Below, piece after piece: positions 39,489 to 48,316 of a DNA stretch of 64,000 nucleotides. Source of the stretch: Actinopolymorpha cephalotaxi (GTDB lineage: Bacteria > Actinomycetota > Actinomycetes > Propionibacteriales > Actinopolymorphaceae); contig NZ_JACBZA010000001.1 of NCBI RefSeq assembly GCF_013408535.1, positions 1,116,001-1,180,000 of the forward strand, written 5' to 3'. The notes under the pieces were generated by a model. The model searched no databases. It was given only the letters and a program-made list of their open reading frames with translations, and was not told where the DNA came from. Every line of letters starts with the position of its first letter. Within the stretch, counting starts at the first letter, position 1. A program made the position numbers and the translations under genes.

Positions 39489-39677
39489 GTGATTGCTCTC
39501 ATCGGCTCGCTGCTGGCGATAACGACGCTGGCGCTGGTGGTCATGGCGCTCGTCGCGGTCTTCGCCCGTACTCCGAGCACACCCACGCCCGAAGAGGACG
39601 CCAACCACCACCAGGACGCACATCTGCTCCATCCCGACCGTTCCGGCCTGAACGGGCAGTACGAAGACGCCGCCTGA
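39489..39677 (+). CDS. Small single-pass membrane protein
   Basis: A 62-residue protein. Residues 1-26 (MIALIGSLLAITTLALVVMALVAVFA) form one transmembrane helix and the rest is a polar His/Asp-rich tail. GTG 39489 is preceded by a strong GGGGGAGGGGA site about 10 nt upstream. An overlapping ORF ending at 39492 is less convincing. It lies between the binding lipoprotein and the convergent M56 gene. No family is recognised. The ribosome site and helix make it a likely gene. Confidence 0.5.
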   Translation: MIALIGSLLAITTLALVVMALVAVFARTPSTPTPEEDANHHQDAHLLHPDRSGLNGQYEDAA

Positions 39678-39710
39678 CGAACCGTGCCGCCCGACGAGCC
39701 TGCCGCCCGA

Positions 39711-41045: not shown

Positions 41046-41066
41046 ATTCTACGACGCTGCGTCGTA
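41046..41066 (-). promoter_or_regulatory. BlaI-type operator overlapping the blaI -10 box
   Basis: TACGAC-gctgc-GTCGTA (41050-41066) is a 17-bp inverted repeat with perfect 6-bp arms. On the minus strand its last TA forms the first two bases of TAGAAT (41051-41046), the -10 box of blaI, 7 nt before the ATG. The arrangement fits autorepression. The same arms recur at 42433-42449. Confidence 0.75.
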
Positions 41067-41207
41067 CTCGGCCGGTCCCGGTGGCGGGGACGGCTGTGGG
41101 ATCGATCACGCGGCGGGTGCTCGAGCGGGTGCCCGGCGGGTGCGGAGCCCGCCGAGGGCGGGGCCGCCGGTTTGGCCGCGCGCCGGGCGATAGGTATCGT
41201 CCCGCCG

Positions 41208-42362
41208 GTGGTGACACCTGCCGCTGATCCCGGAACACCCTCCTCCGACCCGGTGAAGCCGTCCTCCGACGGTGACCCCCGCCACGTGGGCGCGAGGGGT
41301 GATGCCATCACCGACGGCGCTGCCACGGAGAGTAGGCCCGAGGCGACCGGGCGGGTGCCGAAGACCCGGGACCCGTTCTTCGACAACGCGAAGTACATCG
41401 CGATCGTGCTGGTGGTGGCCGGTCACGCGATGGAGGCGCTGCGTGACGTGCCGGTGGGCAAGGCGCTCTACCTCTTTCTCTACATGTTCCACATGCCGGT
41501 GTTCATCATCGTGTCCGGCTACTTCTCCCGGCGCTTTCCGTACTCGAAGAACAAGGCCCGCAAGCTCATCACGCAGTTGCTGGTGCCGTACGTGATCTTC
41601 CAGATCGTGTACCTGCTGCTGGGCCGGTTCGTCGGCGGCCGCGATGTCAACCCGACCTTGCTCGACCCGTACTTCCTGGTGTGGTTCCTGCTGGCGCTGT
41701 TCGCCTGGCGGTTGTCGACACCGGTCTGGCTGCGGATCCGCTGGCCGTTGCTGGTGGCGGTGCTGATCTCGCTGGCGGCCGGGCTGCAGGAACTTCCCGG
41801 CGTGCTGGAGACCGGCCGGATCCTCAGCCTGCTGCCGTTCTTCGTTCTCGGGATGATGCTGAAGCCGGAGCACTTCGCCTACCTGCGCAGGCGCTGGGTG
41901 CGCATCCTGGCCGTCCCGGTGCTGGCCGGCGGCCTGGTGGTCGCCTACTGGGCGCAGACCCGGATGAGTGTGGAGTGGGTCTTCTGGCGGCGCAGCAACG
42001 GGTACCTGGGGGTGGACAACCTCACGGGTACGGCCATGCGGGTGGGGATGCTGGTGTGTGCCACCACCCTGTCGGCGGCCTTCCTCGCGCTGGTGCCCTC
42101 GAAGAAGACGTGGTTCACCGCGCTGGGCGCGATCACGTTGTACGTCTACCTCCTGCACGGCATCCCGGTGAAGGTGGCCGACTACCTCGGCGGGTACGAC
42201 CACCCCGCGCTGCACACCACGCTCGGCGTCCTGGCCGTCGCGGTGGCCGGCGTGCTGCTCGCGGGGCTGCTGTCCACGCCGCCGGTGCGAGCGGCGGTCC
42301 GGTGGGCGGTCGAGCCGAAGCTGGACTGGGCGTTCCGGTCGCGTCCCCGCGGGCTCGGGTAG
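41208..42362 (+). CDS. Acyltransferase-3-like integral membrane protein
   Basis: A 384-residue protein. After about 60 disordered residues it has FFDNAKYIAIVLVVAGHAMEALRD, the usual acyltransferase-3/fucose O-acetylase start with its His, then FLYMFHMPVFIIVSGYFSRRF. About nine further hydrophobic segments follow, ending with LGAITLYVYLLHGIPVKVADYL. Such proteins O-acetylate polysaccharides or other surface sugars. The substrate is unknown. GTG 41208 or 41211 may be the start. It lies between the blaI and cydA operators and is divergent from blaI. Whether it is under the same control is open. Confidence 0.8.
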   Translation: MVTPAADPGTPSSDPVKPSSDGDPRHVGARGDAITDGAATESRPEATGRVPKTRDPFFDNAKYIAIVLVVAGHAMEALRDVPVGKALYLFLYMFHMPVFIIVSGYFSRRFPYSKNKARKLITQLLVPYVIFQIVYLLLGRFVGGRDVNPTLLDPYFLVWFLLALFAWRLSTPVWLRIRWPLLVAVLISLAAGLQELPGVLETGRILSLLPFFVLGMMLKPEHFAYLRRRWVRILAVPVLAGGLVVAYWAQTRMSVEWVFWRRSNGYLGVDNLTGTAMRVGMLVCATTLSAAFLALVPSKKTWFTALGAITLYVYLLHGIPVKVADYLGGYDHPALHTTLGVLAVAVAGVLLAGLLSTPPVRAAVRWAVEPKLDWAFRSRPRGLG

Positions 42363-42432
42363 GGCTCGGGTAGAGCTGCTCGGCTAGGGCACTGCACTTC
42401 GCGTCACCGCGCCGGCGCGATGTGAGCAAGGT

Positions 42433-42465
42433 TACGACGCTCTGTCGTACTACAAGAAGTAGTAT
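42433..42465 (+). promoter_or_regulatory. Tandem BlaI-type operators and -10 box of cydA
   Basis: Two 17-bp inverted repeats overlap by 2 bp: TACGAC-gctct-GTCGTA (42433-42449) and TACTAC-aagaa-GTAGTA (42448-42464). TAGTAT at 42460-42465 is a good -10 box and lies within the second repeat. The cydA ATG is 6 nt downstream, so the mRNA should be leaderless. The first operator has the same arms as the blaI operator at 41050. Confidence 0.75.
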
Positions 42466-42471
42466 TCAGGC

Positions 42472-43932
42472 ATGGGTGCAGTCGACCTCGCACGGTGGCA
42501 GTTCGGCATCACCACCGTCTACCACTTCCTCTTCGTCCCGCTGTCGATCGGACTCTCGGCGATCGTGGCCGGCCTGCAGACCGCGTGGTTCGTCACGAAG
42601 GCGCGGCGCTACCTCACGTTGACGAAGTTCTTCGGCACGATCTTCATCGTCAACTTCGCCGTCGGCATCGTGACCGGGCTGATCCAGGAGTTCCAGTTCG
42701 GGATGAACTGGAGCGCCTACTCGCGGTTCGTCGGCGACATCTTCGGCGTACCGCTGGCGATCGAGGGCCTGCTCGCGTTCTTCCTGGAGTCGACGTTCCT
42801 CGGCCTGTGGGTGTTCGGCTGGAACCGGCTGCCGCGGGTGGTGCACCTCGGCTGCATCTGGCTGGTCGCCATCGGCACCCAGATCTCGGCGTACGTCATC
42901 CTGAGTGTGAACGCCTGGATGCAGCATCCCGTCGGCTACCGGATCGACCCGGCGACCGGCCGGGCGGAACTCACCGACTTCACCGCCCTACTGACGAACC
43001 CGGTCGCGATCCAGGCCGGCCTGCACACCGCGGCGGCGTGCCTGCTCACCGGCGGCGCCCTGGTGGCGGGCGTGGCGTTCTGGCACCTGGCCCGGCCCTC
43101 CGCGACCGACGCCGCCCGGGCCGCGTTTCGTACCGCGGCCAAGGTGGGTTCGGGTGTGGTGGTCGCCGCGGCCCTGGGCGTGGTCGTCACCGGCGACTCG
43201 ATGATGAAGCTGATGACCCAGCTGCAGCCGATGAAGGTGGCCGCGGCCGAGGGGCTGTTCGACACCGAGCAGCCCGCGGGGTTCTCGCTGCTCACCCTGG
43301 GGACGGCGGACGGGCGGCGGGAACTGTGGAGCTTCAGGTTTCCCGACCTGCTGTCGTTCCTCGCCACCGGAAGCTTCACCGGCAAGGTGGAGGGCGTCAA
43401 CCAGCTGCAGGCCAAGGCGGTCGCGGCGTTCGGACCCGGCGACTACGTGCCGAACGTGCCGGTGACCTACTGGAGCTTCCGGCTGATGATGGGCCTCGGT
43501 CTGCTCGCGGCGTTCCTTGCCCTGGTCGGGCTGCTGGTGCTGCGCAAGCCGGGGTTGCTCGCCAACCGCTGGGTGCCCCGGGTCGCGTTGACGGTGCCGT
43601 TCCTTCCGCTGCTGGCGAACAGCTTCGGCTGGCTGTTCACCGAGGGCGGCCGTCAACCGTGGCTTGCATACGGGCTGTTCCAGACCGCGGACGGGGTTTC
43701 GCCGGGCACCGCCGCCTGGCAGGTCGCCGTGTCGCTGGCCGTCTTCACGATCGTGTACGGCGTACTGGCGGTGGTGGAGTTCGGCCTGCTGCGGCGGGTC
43801 GCCCGGCAGGTGCCCGACCTGCCGCCCGACGACGGCGACCAGGCGAGCCCCGCACCGCCCGGACGTGACTCCGGCGACCGGGACGCCGAGGACTCCGACG
43901 ACGCCGACCGCCCGGTCACCTTCGCCTACTGA
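42472..43932 (+). CDS. cydA: Cytochrome bd ubiquinol/menaquinol oxidase subunit I
   Basis: A 486-residue membrane subunit that carries the three hemes of the bd oxidase and oxidises quinol. The N-terminal ARWQFGITTVYHFLFVPLSIGLS contains a heme-ligand His. WMQHPVGYRID, the GRQPW motif (TEGGRQPWLAYGL) and nine or so hydrophobic helices are present. The periplasmic Q-loop is of the short type seen in Gram-positives. The last 45 residues are Asp/Pro-rich and cytoplasmic. ATG 42472 follows tandem BlaI-type operators by 8 bp and has no ribosome site. It is the first gene of a four-gene operon. Confidence 0.96.
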   Translation: MGAVDLARWQFGITTVYHFLFVPLSIGLSAIVAGLQTAWFVTKARRYLTLTKFFGTIFIVNFAVGIVTGLIQEFQFGMNWSAYSRFVGDIFGVPLAIEGLLAFFLESTFLGLWVFGWNRLPRVVHLGCIWLVAIGTQISAYVILSVNAWMQHPVGYRIDPATGRAELTDFTALLTNPVAIQAGLHTAAACLLTGGALVAGVAFWHLARPSATDAARAAFRTAAKVGSGVVVAAALGVVVTGDSMMKLMTQLQPMKVAAAEGLFDTEQPAGFSLLTLGTADGRRELWSFRFPDLLSFLATGSFTGKVEGVNQLQAKAVAAFGPGDYVPNVPVTYWSFRLMMGLGLLAAFLALVGLLVLRKPGLLANRWVPRVALTVPFLPLLANSFGWLFTEGGRQPWLAYGLFQTADGVSPGTAAWQVAVSLAVFTIVYGVLAVVEFGLLRRVARQVPDLPPDDGDQASPAPPGRDSGDRDAEDSDDADRPVTFAY

Positions 43933-43962
43933 CGGTCTGCTCGAAAAGACAGGAGCGTAACG

Positions 43963-44949
43963 ATGGACCTGCCGACGCTGTGGTTCGGGTTGATCGTCTT
44001 CTTTTGGACGCTCTACTTCGTCCTGGAGGGCTTCGACTTCGGAGTAGGTGTGCTCGCCCGCGTGCTCGGCCGCGACGAGGCGGAGCGGGGCAGGCTGCTG
44101 TCCACCATCGCACCGGTCTGGGACGGCAACGAGGTGTGGCTGGTGGTGGCCGGCGGCGCGATGTTCGCGGCCTTTCCCGGGTGGTACGCCACCCTGACCA
44201 GCGTCTACTACCTCCCGCTGGTCGCGATCCTGGTGGCGCTGATCCTGCGCGGTGTCGCACTGGAGTTCCGCGGCAAGCACGACGACGACCGCTGGCGCCG
44301 CCGGTGCGACCTGGGAGTCGCGGTCGGCTCGGCGCTCCCGCCGCTGGCGTGGGGCATCGCGCTGGCCGGTGCGGCCCGTGGCCTCCCGCTGGACGGTCGC
44401 GGTGTGCTCGTCGGCGGTCTCGGTGCACTCCTGCATCCGTACGCCCTGCTGGGCGGATGCGCGCTGCTCGCGCTGTGCCTGCTACACGGTGCGGCGTTCC
44501 TGAGGCTGCGCACGACCGGTGAACTGCGGGCTCGGGCGAGCCGGGCGCTGGCGGTGACGGGTGTTCCGGCCGTCCTGCTCGGCGGCGGGTTCTGGCTGTG
44601 GACCGCGCTGCGAGCCGGTCCCGCTGGCGGGCTGTCCGGGTGGGTCGACCTGGTGGGTGTGGTGGCTGCCCTGGGCGTGGTGGCCGGGGTGGTGCTGCGC
44701 CACGACGGCTGGGCTTTCGCGGGCACCACGGCCGCGGTCGGCGCCACCGTGGTGGCGATCTTCTGCTCGGCTTTCCCTGTGTTGATGCCGTCCACGCTCG
44801 GCCGGATGCACGACCTGACGGTGCTCACCGAGGCGTCACCGGCGTACGGGCTGCGCATCCTCACCATCGCCGGGCTGGTGACCCTGCCGGCCGTACTCGC
44901 CTACCAGGGCTGGTCCTACTGGGTCTTCCGCAGGCGGGTGGCCGGATGA
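43963..44949 (+). CDS. cydB: Cytochrome bd oxidase subunit II
   Basis: A 328-residue polytopic partner of CydA. MDLPTLWFGLIVFFWTLYFVLEGFDFGVGVL at the N-terminus, APVWDGNEVWLVVAGGAMFAAFPGWYA and RGVALEFRGKHDD are the subunit II hallmarks. AGGAGCG lies before ATG 43963, 30 bp after cydA. The stop overlaps the start of cydD (ATGA), so translation is coupled. The bd oxidase is used at low oxygen and under respiratory stress. Confidence 0.96.
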   Translation: MDLPTLWFGLIVFFWTLYFVLEGFDFGVGVLARVLGRDEAERGRLLSTIAPVWDGNEVWLVVAGGAMFAAFPGWYATLTSVYYLPLVAILVALILRGVALEFRGKHDDDRWRRRCDLGVAVGSALPPLAWGIALAGAARGLPLDGRGVLVGGLGALLHPYALLGGCALLALCLLHGAAFLRLRTTGELRARASRALAVTGVPAVLLGGGFWLWTALRAGPAGGLSGWVDLVGVVAALGVVAGVVLRHDGWAFAGTTAAVGATVVAIFCSAFPVLMPSTLGRMHDLTVLTEASPAYGLRILTIAGLVTLPAVLAYQGWSYWVFRRRVAG

Positions 44950-46667
44950 GCGGGGCGGGAACGTCCGTGCGCCCGCTCGACCCGCGGCTGCTGCGGTACG
45001 CCCGGTCCAGTGCGGTGTACGTCGGGCTGACCGCCGGGATCGGCGCGGTGGCGGCCGGCCTGGTGATCGCCCAGGCCACCGTGCTGGCCGACGTGATCAG
45101 CGGGGTGTTCGGCGGGGCGTTCGGTGGTGTGCAGACCGAGTATGGAAGGGCGCTTGCCCTGCTGGGGCTGGTGATCGCGGCCCGGGCCGGGCTCGCGTGG
45201 GGCCAGGAGGTGGCCGCCCAGCGTTCCTCGGCCGCTGTCAAGGCGACCTTGCGGCGGCGGATCAGCGAGCACGTCGCCGAGCTCGGCCCGTCCTGGCTGG
45301 GGACCGAACGCCGGGCGGCGCTGACCACGTTGGTGACATCGGGCCTGGACGCGCTGGACGGCTACTTCGCGCGCTACCTGCCGCAACTCGTGCTCGCCAC
45401 CATCGTCCCGGCCGCCGTCGTGGTGTGCCTGTTCACCGCCGACCCGCTGTCCGCGGCGATCGTGGCGCTCACCCTGCCGCTGATCCCGGTCTTCATGGTG
45501 CTGGTGGGGCTGGCCACCAGGGCACGGACCAGGCGGCGGTGGCGGGCGCTGGCAGTGCTGGCGCACCACTTCGCCGACGTTGTCGCGGGACTGCCCACCC
45601 TGAAGCTGTTCGGCCGGGCGAAGGCACAGGCCCGGGCACTGCGCGAGGTGTCCGACGAGCACCGGCGGGAGTCGCTGGCCACCCTGCGGATCGCGTTCCT
45701 GTCCGCGCTCGTCCTCGAACTGCTGGCCACCCTGTCGGTGGCACTGGTCGCGGTCGGGATCGGGCTGCGGCTGGTCGAGGGTGAGCTGGACCTGCGGACG
45801 GCGGTGCTGGTCCTGGTGCTGGCGCCGGAGGCGTACCTCCCGTTGCGGATGGTGGGCACGCACTTCCACGCCAGTGCCGACGGGCTCGCCGCGGCGGAGG
45901 AGGCGTTCCGGGTGCTGGAGACGCCGCTGCCCCACCGAGGTGCGGGCGACGTGGACCCGGGCAAGGTCACCTTGACGGTACGAGACCTCGAGATCCGCTA
46001 CCCCGACCGCGACGCGCCGGCCCTGGCCGGATTGACGATGACCGTTCGTCCGGGGGAGACCGTGGCGGTCACCGGACCGAGCGGCGCGGGCAAGTCCACC
46101 TTGCTGGCCGGTCTGCTCGGCTTCGTGCTCCCGGCGTCCGGTGAGGTGCTGGCCGGGGCGCACGACCTGGCCCGCGTCGACCCGGTTGCCTGGCGGGCAG
46201 GCGTCGCCTGGGTGCCCCAACGTCCTTACCTGCTTGCGGGAACCATCGCGGACAACATCCGGATCGGTGACCCCGAAGCCGACCGCGGCCACGTCGTCGC
46301 CGCGCTGGCCCGCGCCGGTGCCGGTGACCTGGACCCGGACCGGCCGGTAGGGGAGCGTGGCGCGGGGCTGTCCGCCGGTCAGGTGCGCCGGGTCGCGCTC
46401 GCCCGGGCGCTGGTGCGGGTGGATCGGCGGCTGGCGGCCGGCCAGGGCTGCCTGCTGTTGCTGGACGAACCCACCGCGGGACTGGACTCCGGAACCGAGG
46501 AGCAGGTGCGGGCCGAACTCACCCGGCTGCGGACGAACGGCGTCACCACGATCGTGGTCACGCACCGCCCGACGCTCCTCCCACTTGCCGACCGGGTCGT
46601 GGAGGTACCTCTGCGAACGACCCCCACCTCGCGGCCCGGTCGCCCTCTCACCGGAGTGCCCGCATGA
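44946..46667 (+). CDS. cydD: Thiol reductant ABC exporter subunit CydD
   Basis: A 573-residue half-transporter needed for bd oxidase assembly (export of cysteine/glutathione-type thiols in relatives). Six membrane helices occupy residues 20-310. The ABC domain has GPSGAGKSTLLAGLLG (Walker A), LSAGQVRRVALARAL (signature) and LLLLDEPTAGLD (Walker B). ATG 44946 overlaps the cydB stop, and its own stop overlaps the cydC start in the same ATGA manner. The operon order cydABDC is normal for actinobacteria and Bacillus-like relatives. Confidence 0.93.
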   Translation: MSGAGTSVRPLDPRLLRYARSSAVYVGLTAGIGAVAAGLVIAQATVLADVISGVFGGAFGGVQTEYGRALALLGLVIAARAGLAWGQEVAAQRSSAAVKATLRRRISEHVAELGPSWLGTERRAALTTLVTSGLDALDGYFARYLPQLVLATIVPAAVVVCLFTADPLSAAIVALTLPLIPVFMVLVGLATRARTRRRWRALAVLAHHFADVVAGLPTLKLFGRAKAQARALREVSDEHRRESLATLRIAFLSALVLELLATLSVALVAVGIGLRLVEGELDLRTAVLVLVLAPEAYLPLRMVGTHFHASADGLAAAEEAFRVLETPLPHRGAGDVDPGKVTLTVRDLEIRYPDRDAPALAGLTMTVRPGETVAVTGPSGAGKSTLLAGLLGFVLPASGEVLAGAHDLARVDPVAWRAGVAWVPQRPYLLAGTIADNIRIGDPEADRGHVVAALARAGAGDLDPDRPVGERGAGLSAGQVRRVALARALVRVDRRLAAGQGCLLLLDEPTAGLDSGTEEQVRAELTRLRTNGVTTIVVTHRPTLLPLADRVVEVPLRTTPTSRPGRPLTGVPA

Positions 46668-48316
46668 CCGGGACGACCGGGATGCCCGGGACGCCCGCCA
46701 GGACAGGGGTTCGGCTCGTCCTCGCCGCGGCAGCGGGCGTCGCGGCGGCGGCCAGCGCCGTCGCCCTGCTGGCCACCTCGGCCTGGCTGATCTCGCGGGC
46801 CGCCCAGCATCCGCCGGTGCTGGTGCTGATGGTCGCGATCGTGGCGGTGCGCGCTTTCGGGCTCGGCCGGGGTGTGCTGCGCTACGTCGAACGGCTGCTC
46901 GCGCACGACTCGGCGTACCGGCTACTGGGTGACGTCCGGTCCGACGCCTACCGCCGGCTGGAGCGACTGGCCCCAGGCGGGCTGGCGGCGTTCCGCTCCG
47001 GTGACCTGCTCTCTCGGCTGGTCGCCGACGTGGACGCGGTGCTGGACGTGATCCTGCGGGTGGCGCTGCCGGTGACGGCGGTCGGCATCACCGGAGCGGC
47101 CACGGCGGTGTTCCTCGGGCTGGTCCTTCCGGCCGCCGGGGTGGCGACCGCGGTCTGTGTGGCAGTGGCGCTGCTCGTGGTGCCGTGGCTGGTGGCCCGA
47201 TCCGGCCGGGCGGCCGAGCGTGCGGTCGCACCCGAGCGCGGCCGGCTGGCAACCGCCACCACCGAACTCCTCGACGGCGCTCCGGACCTGCTGGCCTACG
47301 GTGCGGCCGGCCCGGTGCTGGACCACGTACGAGCAAGCACCGAACGGCTCCGGCGGGCCGAACGCAGGTCGGCCTGGAGCGCCGGGCTCGGTTCGGCCGG
47401 GCTGGTGCTGGCGGTCGGCGCGGCCTGCTGGGTGGGACTCACGGCGGGGGTGCCCGCGGTCGCCGGCGGGCGGCTGGACCCGGTGCTGCTGGCCGTGGTG
47501 GCGCTGGTCCCGCTGGCCCTGGCCGACGTGTTCGCCGCGATCCCGGCGGCGGCGCTCGGCGCCGCGCGGGCACGTCCGGCGCTGGCCCGGCTGGCGCAAC
47601 TGCGGTCGGCACCGGAGCCGGTGGCCGAACCCGAGCAGCCGTTGCCGCTGCCGCCCGGCCCCCACCACCTGCGGGTGCACGACCTCGCAGTGCGCTGGTC
47701 GCCGGACACGCCGTGGGTGTTCGCCGGTGTCAACCTGGACCTGCCACCCGGCAGGCGGATCGCGGTGGTCGGGCCGAGCGGATGCGGTAAGAGCACGCTC
47801 GCGCAGGCGCTGGTGCGGTTCGTCGAGCCGGGCCGGGGGCGGATCAGCCTGGACGGTGTGGACGTACGCAGGTTCGCCACCGACGACGTGCGCACGGTGG
47901 TCAGCCTGTGCGCCCAGGACGCGCACATCTTCGACACCACCCTCGCCGAGAACGTCCGGCTGGCCAGGCCCGGCGCCGACGACACCGACGTACGTCACGC
48001 ACTGGCGCAAGCTCGCCTGCTGGACCGGCTGGAATCGTTCCCAGAAGGCATCCACACCCGGGTCGGCGAACACGGCGAACGGCTGTCCGGCGGGGAACGC
48101 CAACGGCTGGCGCTGGCCCGTTGCCTGCTGGCCGGTACGCCGGTGGTGGTGTTCGACGAACCCACCGAGCACCTGGCTGAGCCGGACGCGACCGCGCTCA
48201 CCCGCGATCTGCTCGCCGCCACCGGTGACCGAACCGTCGTCCTCGTCACCCACCGCGCCGTGCCGGCCGACCTGGTGGACGAGGTGCTGGACCTGGGGAT
48301 GCTCACCGCCCGGTGA
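46664..48316 (+). CDS. cydC: Thiol reductant ABC exporter subunit CydC
   Basis: A 550-residue half-transporter forming a heterodimer with CydD. The transmembrane region spans about 15-290 with ASAVALLATSAWLISRAAQHPPV, a CydC-typical beginning. The ABC domain has GPSGCGKSTLAQALVRF, LSGGERQRLALARCLLAG and VVVFDEPTEHLAEPDA. ATGA overlap with cydD gives coupling. The 3' end overlaps the convergent dapA-like gene by 14 bp. With CydD it supports heme insertion into CydAB. Confidence 0.93.
   Translation: MTGTTGMPGTPARTGVRLVLAAAAGVAAAASAVALLATSAWLISRAAQHPPVLVLMVAIVAVRAFGLGRGVLRYVERLLAHDSAYRLLGDVRSDAYRRLERLAPGGLAAFRSGDLLSRLVADVDAVLDVILRVALPVTAVGITGAATAVFLGLVLPAAGVATAVCVAVALLVVPWLVARSGRAAERAVAPERGRLATATTELLDGAPDLLAYGAAGPVLDHVRASTERLRRAERRSAWSAGLGSAGLVLAVGAACWVGLTAGVPAVAGGRLDPVLLAVVALVPLALADVFAAIPAAALGAARARPALARLAQLRSAPEPVAEPEQPLPLPPGPHHLRVHDLAVRWSPDTPWVFAGVNLDLPPGRRIAVVGPSGCGKSTLAQALVRFVEPGRGRISLDGVDVRRFATDDVRTVVSLCAQDAHIFDTTLAENVRLARPGADDTDVRHALAQARLLDRLESFPEGIHTRVGEHGERLSGGERQRLALARCLLAGTPVVVFDEPTEHLAEPDATALTRDLLAATGDRTVVLVTHRAVPADLVDEVLDLGMLTAR

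Follow-up and report, generated by a model that had tools for sequence, protein, structure and literature searches.

Actinopolymorpha carries a gene pair of the BlaI repressor and M56 protease type beside its cytochrome bd operon, which raises the question of whether this pair controls respiration, and through which DNA element. We analysed a 64-kb window, meaning the whole stretch of DNA under study, in which the blaI-M56 pair is divergent from an acyltransferase gene and cydABDC (42472-48316). The gene identities given in the original prediction were confirmed (as Penicillinase_R, M48/M56-type protease, Acyl_transf_3, CydA, CydB, CydD and CydC), and the coordinates are collected in Table 1. 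A gene for a periplasmic binding protein (PF01497, 38139-39239), possibly involved in metal, heme, siderophore or cobalamin uptake, lies close to the pair on its M56 side and has homologues near the BlaI/M56 pair in other family genomes, G002 and G007 among them. A short ORF of ~62 aa with one hydrophobic helix (39489-39678) is located between it and the M56 gene.

Table 1 Coordinates of genes and candidate control elements at the blaI-M56/cydABDC locus and at a third candidate target.
Feature	Position	Strand	Remarks
M56/BlaR-type membrane metalloprotease, 306 aa	39711-40631	-	Pfam M48; downstream of blaI
blaI, BlaI/MecI-family winged-helix repressor, 134 aa	40634-41038	-	PF03965, E 2.4e-29
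Proposed blaI -10 hexamer TAGAAT	41046-41051 (read 41051 to 41046)	-	from sequence and alignment; relatives TAGAAT or TAGGAT
Operator O1 TACGACGCTGCGTCGTA	41050-41066	.	exact TACKAC-N5-GTMGTA; candidate autoregulatory site at blaI
Acyltransferase-3 membrane protein (Acyl_transf_3), between the operators	41208-42362	+	PF01757
Crp-like site TGTGA-N6-TTACG	42421-42436	+	2 mismatches to TGTGA-N6-TCACA; partly overlaps O2
Operator O2 TACGACGCTCTGTCGTA	42433-42449	.	exact dyad upstream of cydA; exact in 6/6 genus genomes
Operator O3 TACTACAAGAAGTAGTA	42448-42464	.	exact dyad; overlaps cydA -10 box; exact in 6/6 genus genomes
Proposed cydA -10 hexamer TAGTAT	42460-42465	+	read from sequence
cydA, cytochrome bd oxidase subunit I	42472-43932	+	PF01654, E 1.7e-155
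cydB, cytochrome bd oxidase subunit II	43963-44949	+	PF02322, E 5.4e-95
cydD, ABC exporter subunit for bd assembly	44946-46667	+	TIGR02857, E 4.3e-179
cydC, ABC exporter subunit for bd assembly	46664-48316	+	TIGR02868, E 2.4e-173
Third candidate operator	G000:C1:3977051-3977067 (L005 1501-1517; L156 6052-6068)		exact dyad; 48 bp upstream of a membrane-protein gene

The dyads that had been predicted at blaI and cydA were all three found to be exact and at the positions given for them. O2 and O3 overlap by 2 bp, and O1 shares two bases with the proposed blaI -10 box TAGAAT; at the third candidate operator, located elsewhere in the genome, the dyad is also followed by TAGTAT. The proposed overlap with the blaI and cydA -10 boxes fits these assignments, and at all three promoters the right arm GTMGTA is the source of the first -10 bases, which suggests repression through promoter covering. 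A consensus scan found no sigma-70 promoter at blaI or cydA because the -35 hexamers are poor. Both proposed -10 boxes are near the start codons, so the two transcripts would be nearly leaderless.

Matches to this operator were rare. With up to one mismatch allowed, the window contained no dyads beyond O1, O2 and O3, and window shuffles gave a mean of 0.06 dyads and never reached three. In the genome-wide scan that the original prediction had proposed, exact matches were likewise scarce (six in 6.86 Mb versus one for a reversed-pattern control), but the one-mismatch motif was not enriched (53 versus 80 in the reversed control), and weight was therefore placed only on exact sites in promoter position. 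Two exact sites, C1:225751 and C1:4610600, were dropped as operators, both being within coding sequence (a peptidase gene, L001, and a phosphotransferase gene, L006). The third candidate target encodes a four-helix membrane protein of 115 aa for which no family was found in Pfam or NCBIfam. The same genome also contains a second, distant cydA-type gene (G000:C1:6855266-6856564) with no dyad nearby.

Comparison of related genomes showed that the dyads are conserved in the genus and in related genera, at blaI as well as at cydA. All three locus dyads and the third-target dyad are kept in 6/6 genus genomes, and at blaI, cydA and the third target the twelve arm bases are unchanged among them and the five spacer bases vary. 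The O1 arms are invariant, again with a variable spacer, in 8/8 family genomes. Two of these comparisons involve other genera of the same family: G006 has two dyads at cydA and a single one at blaI, and the gene content between them differs; in G007, where blaI and cydA are ~2 Mb apart, dyads are kept at both (one at blaI; one exact and two near-exact at cydA) and an exact dyad is also present upstream of its copy of the third-target gene. A further G007 site, 2508934, lacks a clear promoter context and was set aside. The acyltransferase gene, which had been suggested as a possible part of the unit, was absent from the G006, Kribbella, Aeromicrobium and Actinoplanes loci. Because it is confined to the genus, and because blaI and cydA are directly divergent in most lineages, we exclude it; judged by gene context, it is a genus-level insertion outside the conserved unit.

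To describe the wider distribution, 80 loci of BlaI relatives were compared. The blaI-M56 pair and cydAB lie next to each other in divergent orientation, separated by a region with one to three dyads, in Kribbella, Aeromicrobium, Microlunatus, Nocardioides, Cellulomonas, Pseudokineococcus, Dactylosporangium and many Actinoplanes relatives. Where blaI adjoins a cyd gene without a TACKAC dyad, TTCTAC-N5-GTAGAA is carried instead, with equal spacing and drifted arms. In a survey of the class (138 genomes drawn, 110 cydA upstream regions of 250 bp tested), the exact dyad was present in 32/110 regions versus 0 of the shuffles, and a dyad with at most one mismatch in 40/110 versus 0.36% of the shuffles. 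We then used the general dyad THCKAC-N5-GTMGDA, whose shuffle rate is 1.4%, and counted BlaI matches as strong from 100 bits upwards. The general dyad was found upstream of cydA in 43/45 genomes with a strong BlaI match versus 7/47 genomes below that limit (Fisher p 2e-16, indicative only, since the surveyed genomes share ancestry and the p-value therefore overstates their independence). Of the seven low-scoring genomes with a dyad, six have cydA adjoined by a diverged blaI, and in five of these the arms are TTCTAC; the remaining one falls just under the limit. The conservation of the dyad and its co-occurrence with BlaI support the central claim of the original prediction, namely that the operator is shared, that BlaI is its most likely ligand and that cydABDC is a target. 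In another lineage (loci L313, L315 and L317-L320), a BlaI/M56 pair was observed near a gene for a distant CydA-type bd oxidase (~31-36% identical), and most of these loci contain TTCTAC-N5-GTAGAA dyads.

The repressor itself belongs to a well-delimited type. It matches positions 1-114 of the 115 of PF03965 with 102.5 bits (cut-off 22.6), matches its mycobacterial orthologues at ~60%, and matches the structure of M. tuberculosis Rv1846c (PDB 2g9w) over residues 2-122 (phmmer E 8.9e-40), with nearly the same residues in the recognition-helix region. Together with the adjacent sensor-less BlaR, this closeness to Rv1846c indicates from sequence that the pair is of the M. tuberculosis BlaI/BlaR type.

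The dyad might nevertheless belong to another regulator, either a BlaI paralogue or an unrelated factor, with blaI as a mere neighbour. Three further BlaI paralogues, 41-46% identical, are encoded in the genome, and two of them (L036 and L037) carry in their promoters CTAC/GTAG-rich dyads whose arms differ or whose spacer is 7 bases long (in one case TACTAC arms with the 7-base spacer), so cross-talk is possible. We consider this explanation very improbable, as this blaI type has a dyad at its own promoter in all genomes of the family, and almost all of its mycobacterial, Kribbella, Actinoplanes and Aeromicrobium orthologues have one too; the presence of the dyad at cydA also follows this BlaI type. 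In lineages with TTCTAC arms at cydA, moreover, blaI is adjacent and the arms of its dyads have drifted likewise. At position 43, within the recognition-helix region, 96/96 aligned TACKAC-type proteins have M and 7/7 TTCTAC-type proteins have L, a split that fits direct recognition by BlaI, with phylogeny as a confounder.

The M56 protein contains the HExxH motif as HERAH at residues 175-179, and its zinc-protease residues H, E, H, E and D are invariant in 18 relatives, as is a cysteine at residue 145 in an AYC motif upstream of HExxH, which is a candidate sensing residue. It scored above the Pfam cut-off for M48 and below it for M56 (25.7 bits, cut-off 31), and is ~55% identical to the mycobacterial partners. 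Hydropathy predicted 4 TM helices, with the chain ending after the fourth. The AlphaFold model (pLDDT 86) was aligned to the membrane and protease region of S. aureus BlaR1, residues 1-289 (Z 11.4, rmsd 5.0, 226 residues); ZMPSTE24-type proteases reached about the same Z and covered less of the model. A phmmer search of the protein against the PDB returned noise only, and Foldseek found no match to the model at E below 0.001. Sequence, hydropathy and model agree that a penicillin-binding domain is absent from the 306-aa protein, in line with the sensor of this kind that had been proposed.

In staphylococci, M56-type relief is triggered by beta-lactams through a sensor domain. The absence from this M56 protein of the sensor domain that drives BlaR1 is one reason to ask whether BlaI represses but is relieved without proteolysis, with BlaI itself sensing a ligand or metal in the manner of CopY, or with M56 serving another substrate. 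BlaI also scores against the CopY/TcrY copper-repressor model, though far under its cut-off. We regard non-proteolytic relief as unlikely: the M56 gene is conserved beside this BlaI type in nearly all loci examined, its catalytic residues do not vary, and the cyanobacterial PetR/PetP pair operates by protease-dependent loss of the repressor (PMC7896320). Relief of BlaI through cleavage by M56, argued from analogy, would be the better reading.

Mycobacterial genomes have blaI away from cydA, yet the exact dyad was found in 29/29 Mycobacterium cydA promoters with a placeable start; it is also present at cydA in Williamsia, Flexivirga and Janibacter. Total exact-site counts in the mycobacterial genomes are similar to those of the reversed control, and recurrence at the same genes was therefore taken as the evidence. 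The dyad recurs upstream of ATP synthase I in five genomes (225-237 bp from the predicted start in four), and at the promoters of a NorB-type nitric oxide reductase, a CtaG-type oxidase assembly factor, DUF4383, an 84-aa protein and a glyoxalase-like gene. The NorB-type sites were seen in L194, L427 and L441, and the CtaG-type sites, 11 bp upstream of the gene, in L189 and L428, a position through which BlaI might be connected to the assembly of copper oxidases. Another mycobacterial exact match, TACGACGAAAAGTAGTA, was set aside, as it is conserved together with its spacer and can be read as YDEK-stop, with no gene start beside it; it is probably coding.

The abstract of Sala 2009 is said to name ATP synthase, blaC-sigC, rv1456c and rv3921c as BlaI targets in M. 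tuberculosis, with cyd not among them. What ties the mycobacterial dyad to BlaI is the ATP synthase site: the Rv1303 promoter is bound by M. tuberculosis BlaI in EMSA (PMC12565901). ATP synthase genes are listed under BlaI in PMC5874750 and PMC8265638, and the latter lists sigC as well. A published statement that the promoters of the cytochrome bd and ATP synthase genes are bound by BlaI in M. tuberculosis is given in PMC5473688, which cites Sala 2009 for it and also describes the mycobacterial BlaR as lacking a beta-lactam sensor. What our comparisons add is the conservation of the BlaI-cyd link across the class and its exact operator; in a literature search covering few subscription journals, no paper describing such class-wide conservation was found. 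In the atpB loci of 8 family genomes, no dyad was detected at up to 2 mismatches, and this missing ATP synthase site is a regulon difference within the same protein family.

The mycobacterial BlaI is described as the blaC repressor (PMC8265638, PMC5473688), and the pair could accordingly be a beta-lactam response system with cydA as a side target. This seems to us a highly improbable account of the Actinopolymorpha pair, given that its M56 protein has no penicillin-binding sensor, that no beta-lactamase gene stands beside any exact site in this genome, and that the targets seen repeatedly in mycobacteria are cyd, ATP synthase, nitric oxide reductase and the CtaG-type factor.

Other regulators of cytochrome bd were also considered. 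The original prediction had placed respiration under protease-relieved rather than Rex control. That contrast holds in so far as no good match to the Rex box TGTGAAC-N2-GTTCACA was found upstream of cydA (the best, at 42421, has 4 mismatches), but it has to be softened, since Rex is encoded in the genome and a Crp-like half-site is present. The TGTGA at 42421-42425 is invariant over three genera and abuts O2, which makes it probable that Crp or a similar activator also works at cydA, as in M. smegmatis (PMC7739888). By comparison, a Streptomyces-like cydA (L214) has a Rex-type box, TGTGAACGCTTTCACA, upstream and no BlaI dyad. In M. smegmatis, cydAB induction has been explained through Crp, with BlaI not mentioned, and a 7.3-fold induction was left after both Crp sites were mutated (PMC7739888).

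Taken together, we hold it to be highly probable that BlaI represses cydABDC and its own operon at the -10 dyads and controls the promoter of the 115-aa membrane protein as well, and that M56 is the sensor that inactivates it. From what is known of the family, a BlaI dimer would bind the 17-bp dyads TACKAC-N5-GTMGTA through its winged-helix domains. O1 would cover the -10 region of the blaI-M56 operon, providing autoregulation, and the overlapping O2 and O3 would cover the cydABDC -10 region and the segment just upstream, so that RNA polymerase would be kept off both promoters. On a respiratory or metal signal, M56 would inactivate BlaI and thereby induce the regulatory pair along with cytochrome bd, with the Crp-like activator probably acting at the adjacent TGTGA site. 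As for the signal, our guess is that M56 responds to copper itself or to a failing copper-dependent main oxidase branch (through low oxygen, an inhibitor or copper shortage). Copper shortage or copper-oxidase failure is attractive because cytochrome bd is copper-free. It is further suggested by the raised cyd and ATP synthase transcripts of an M. tuberculosis sigC mutant in copper-poor medium (PMC7924339), and by the copper-to-heme swap that PetR/PetP carries out through proteolysis of the repressor (PMC7896320).

A broader reading, which we put forward tentatively and place slightly short of evenly balanced, is that the sensor-less BlaI/M56 pairs of Actinobacteria, mycobacterial ones included, have cytochrome bd control as their ancestral and principal function, with M56 sensing respiratory-chain failure or copper, perhaps through the invariant AYC cysteine, and with any beta-lactam role secondary. 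The repressor would then also coordinate ATP synthase, nitric oxide reductase and copper-oxidase assembly in some lineages. Cytochrome bd allows actinobacteria, mycobacteria among them, to continue respiration under low oxygen or with the main oxidase blocked, and induction of the cyd operon is only partly accounted for by Crp, Rex and two-component systems. A BlaI operator at every testable mycobacterial cydA promoter, together with a membrane protease, is a concrete candidate for the missing regulator. By this evidence, the 'beta-lactamase repressor' of mycobacteria may be chiefly a respiratory regulator, in functional parallel to the cyanobacterial copper switch.

Among known systems, M. 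tuberculosis BlaI/BlaR (Rv1846c/Rv1845c) is alike in repressor type and in having an M56 partner without an extracellular beta-lactam sensor (PMC5473688). It differs in that the mycobacterial blaI is apart from cydA, whereas the Actinopolymorpha pair adjoins the cyd operon, and in that Actinopolymorpha shows neither an ATP synthase site nor a beta-lactamase link. The S. aureus BlaI/MecI and BlaR1/MecR1 systems share the repressor and protease folds, as far as the model indicates, but the Actinopolymorpha M56 lacks their penicillin-binding sensor, its targets are respiratory and the operator arms are different. Crp control in M. smegmatis concerns the same operon, and a Crp-like TGTGA element stands beside the dyads in Actinopolymorpha; Crp, however, is an activator. 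Rex control of cydABCD in Streptomyces likewise places a transcriptional repressor on this operon, through another protein and another box. In cyanobacteria, a BlaI/BlaR1-type pair also governs electron transport: PetR, a BlaI-like regulator, and PetP, a BlaR1-like protease, exchange a copper protein for a heme protein within a four-protein regulon (PMC7896320), and cytochrome bd, too, is a copper-free alternative to a copper oxidase. The differences are that PetR represses petE and activates petJ, and that a copper response is reported for PetR/PetP, where copper is a guess for the Actinopolymorpha pair.
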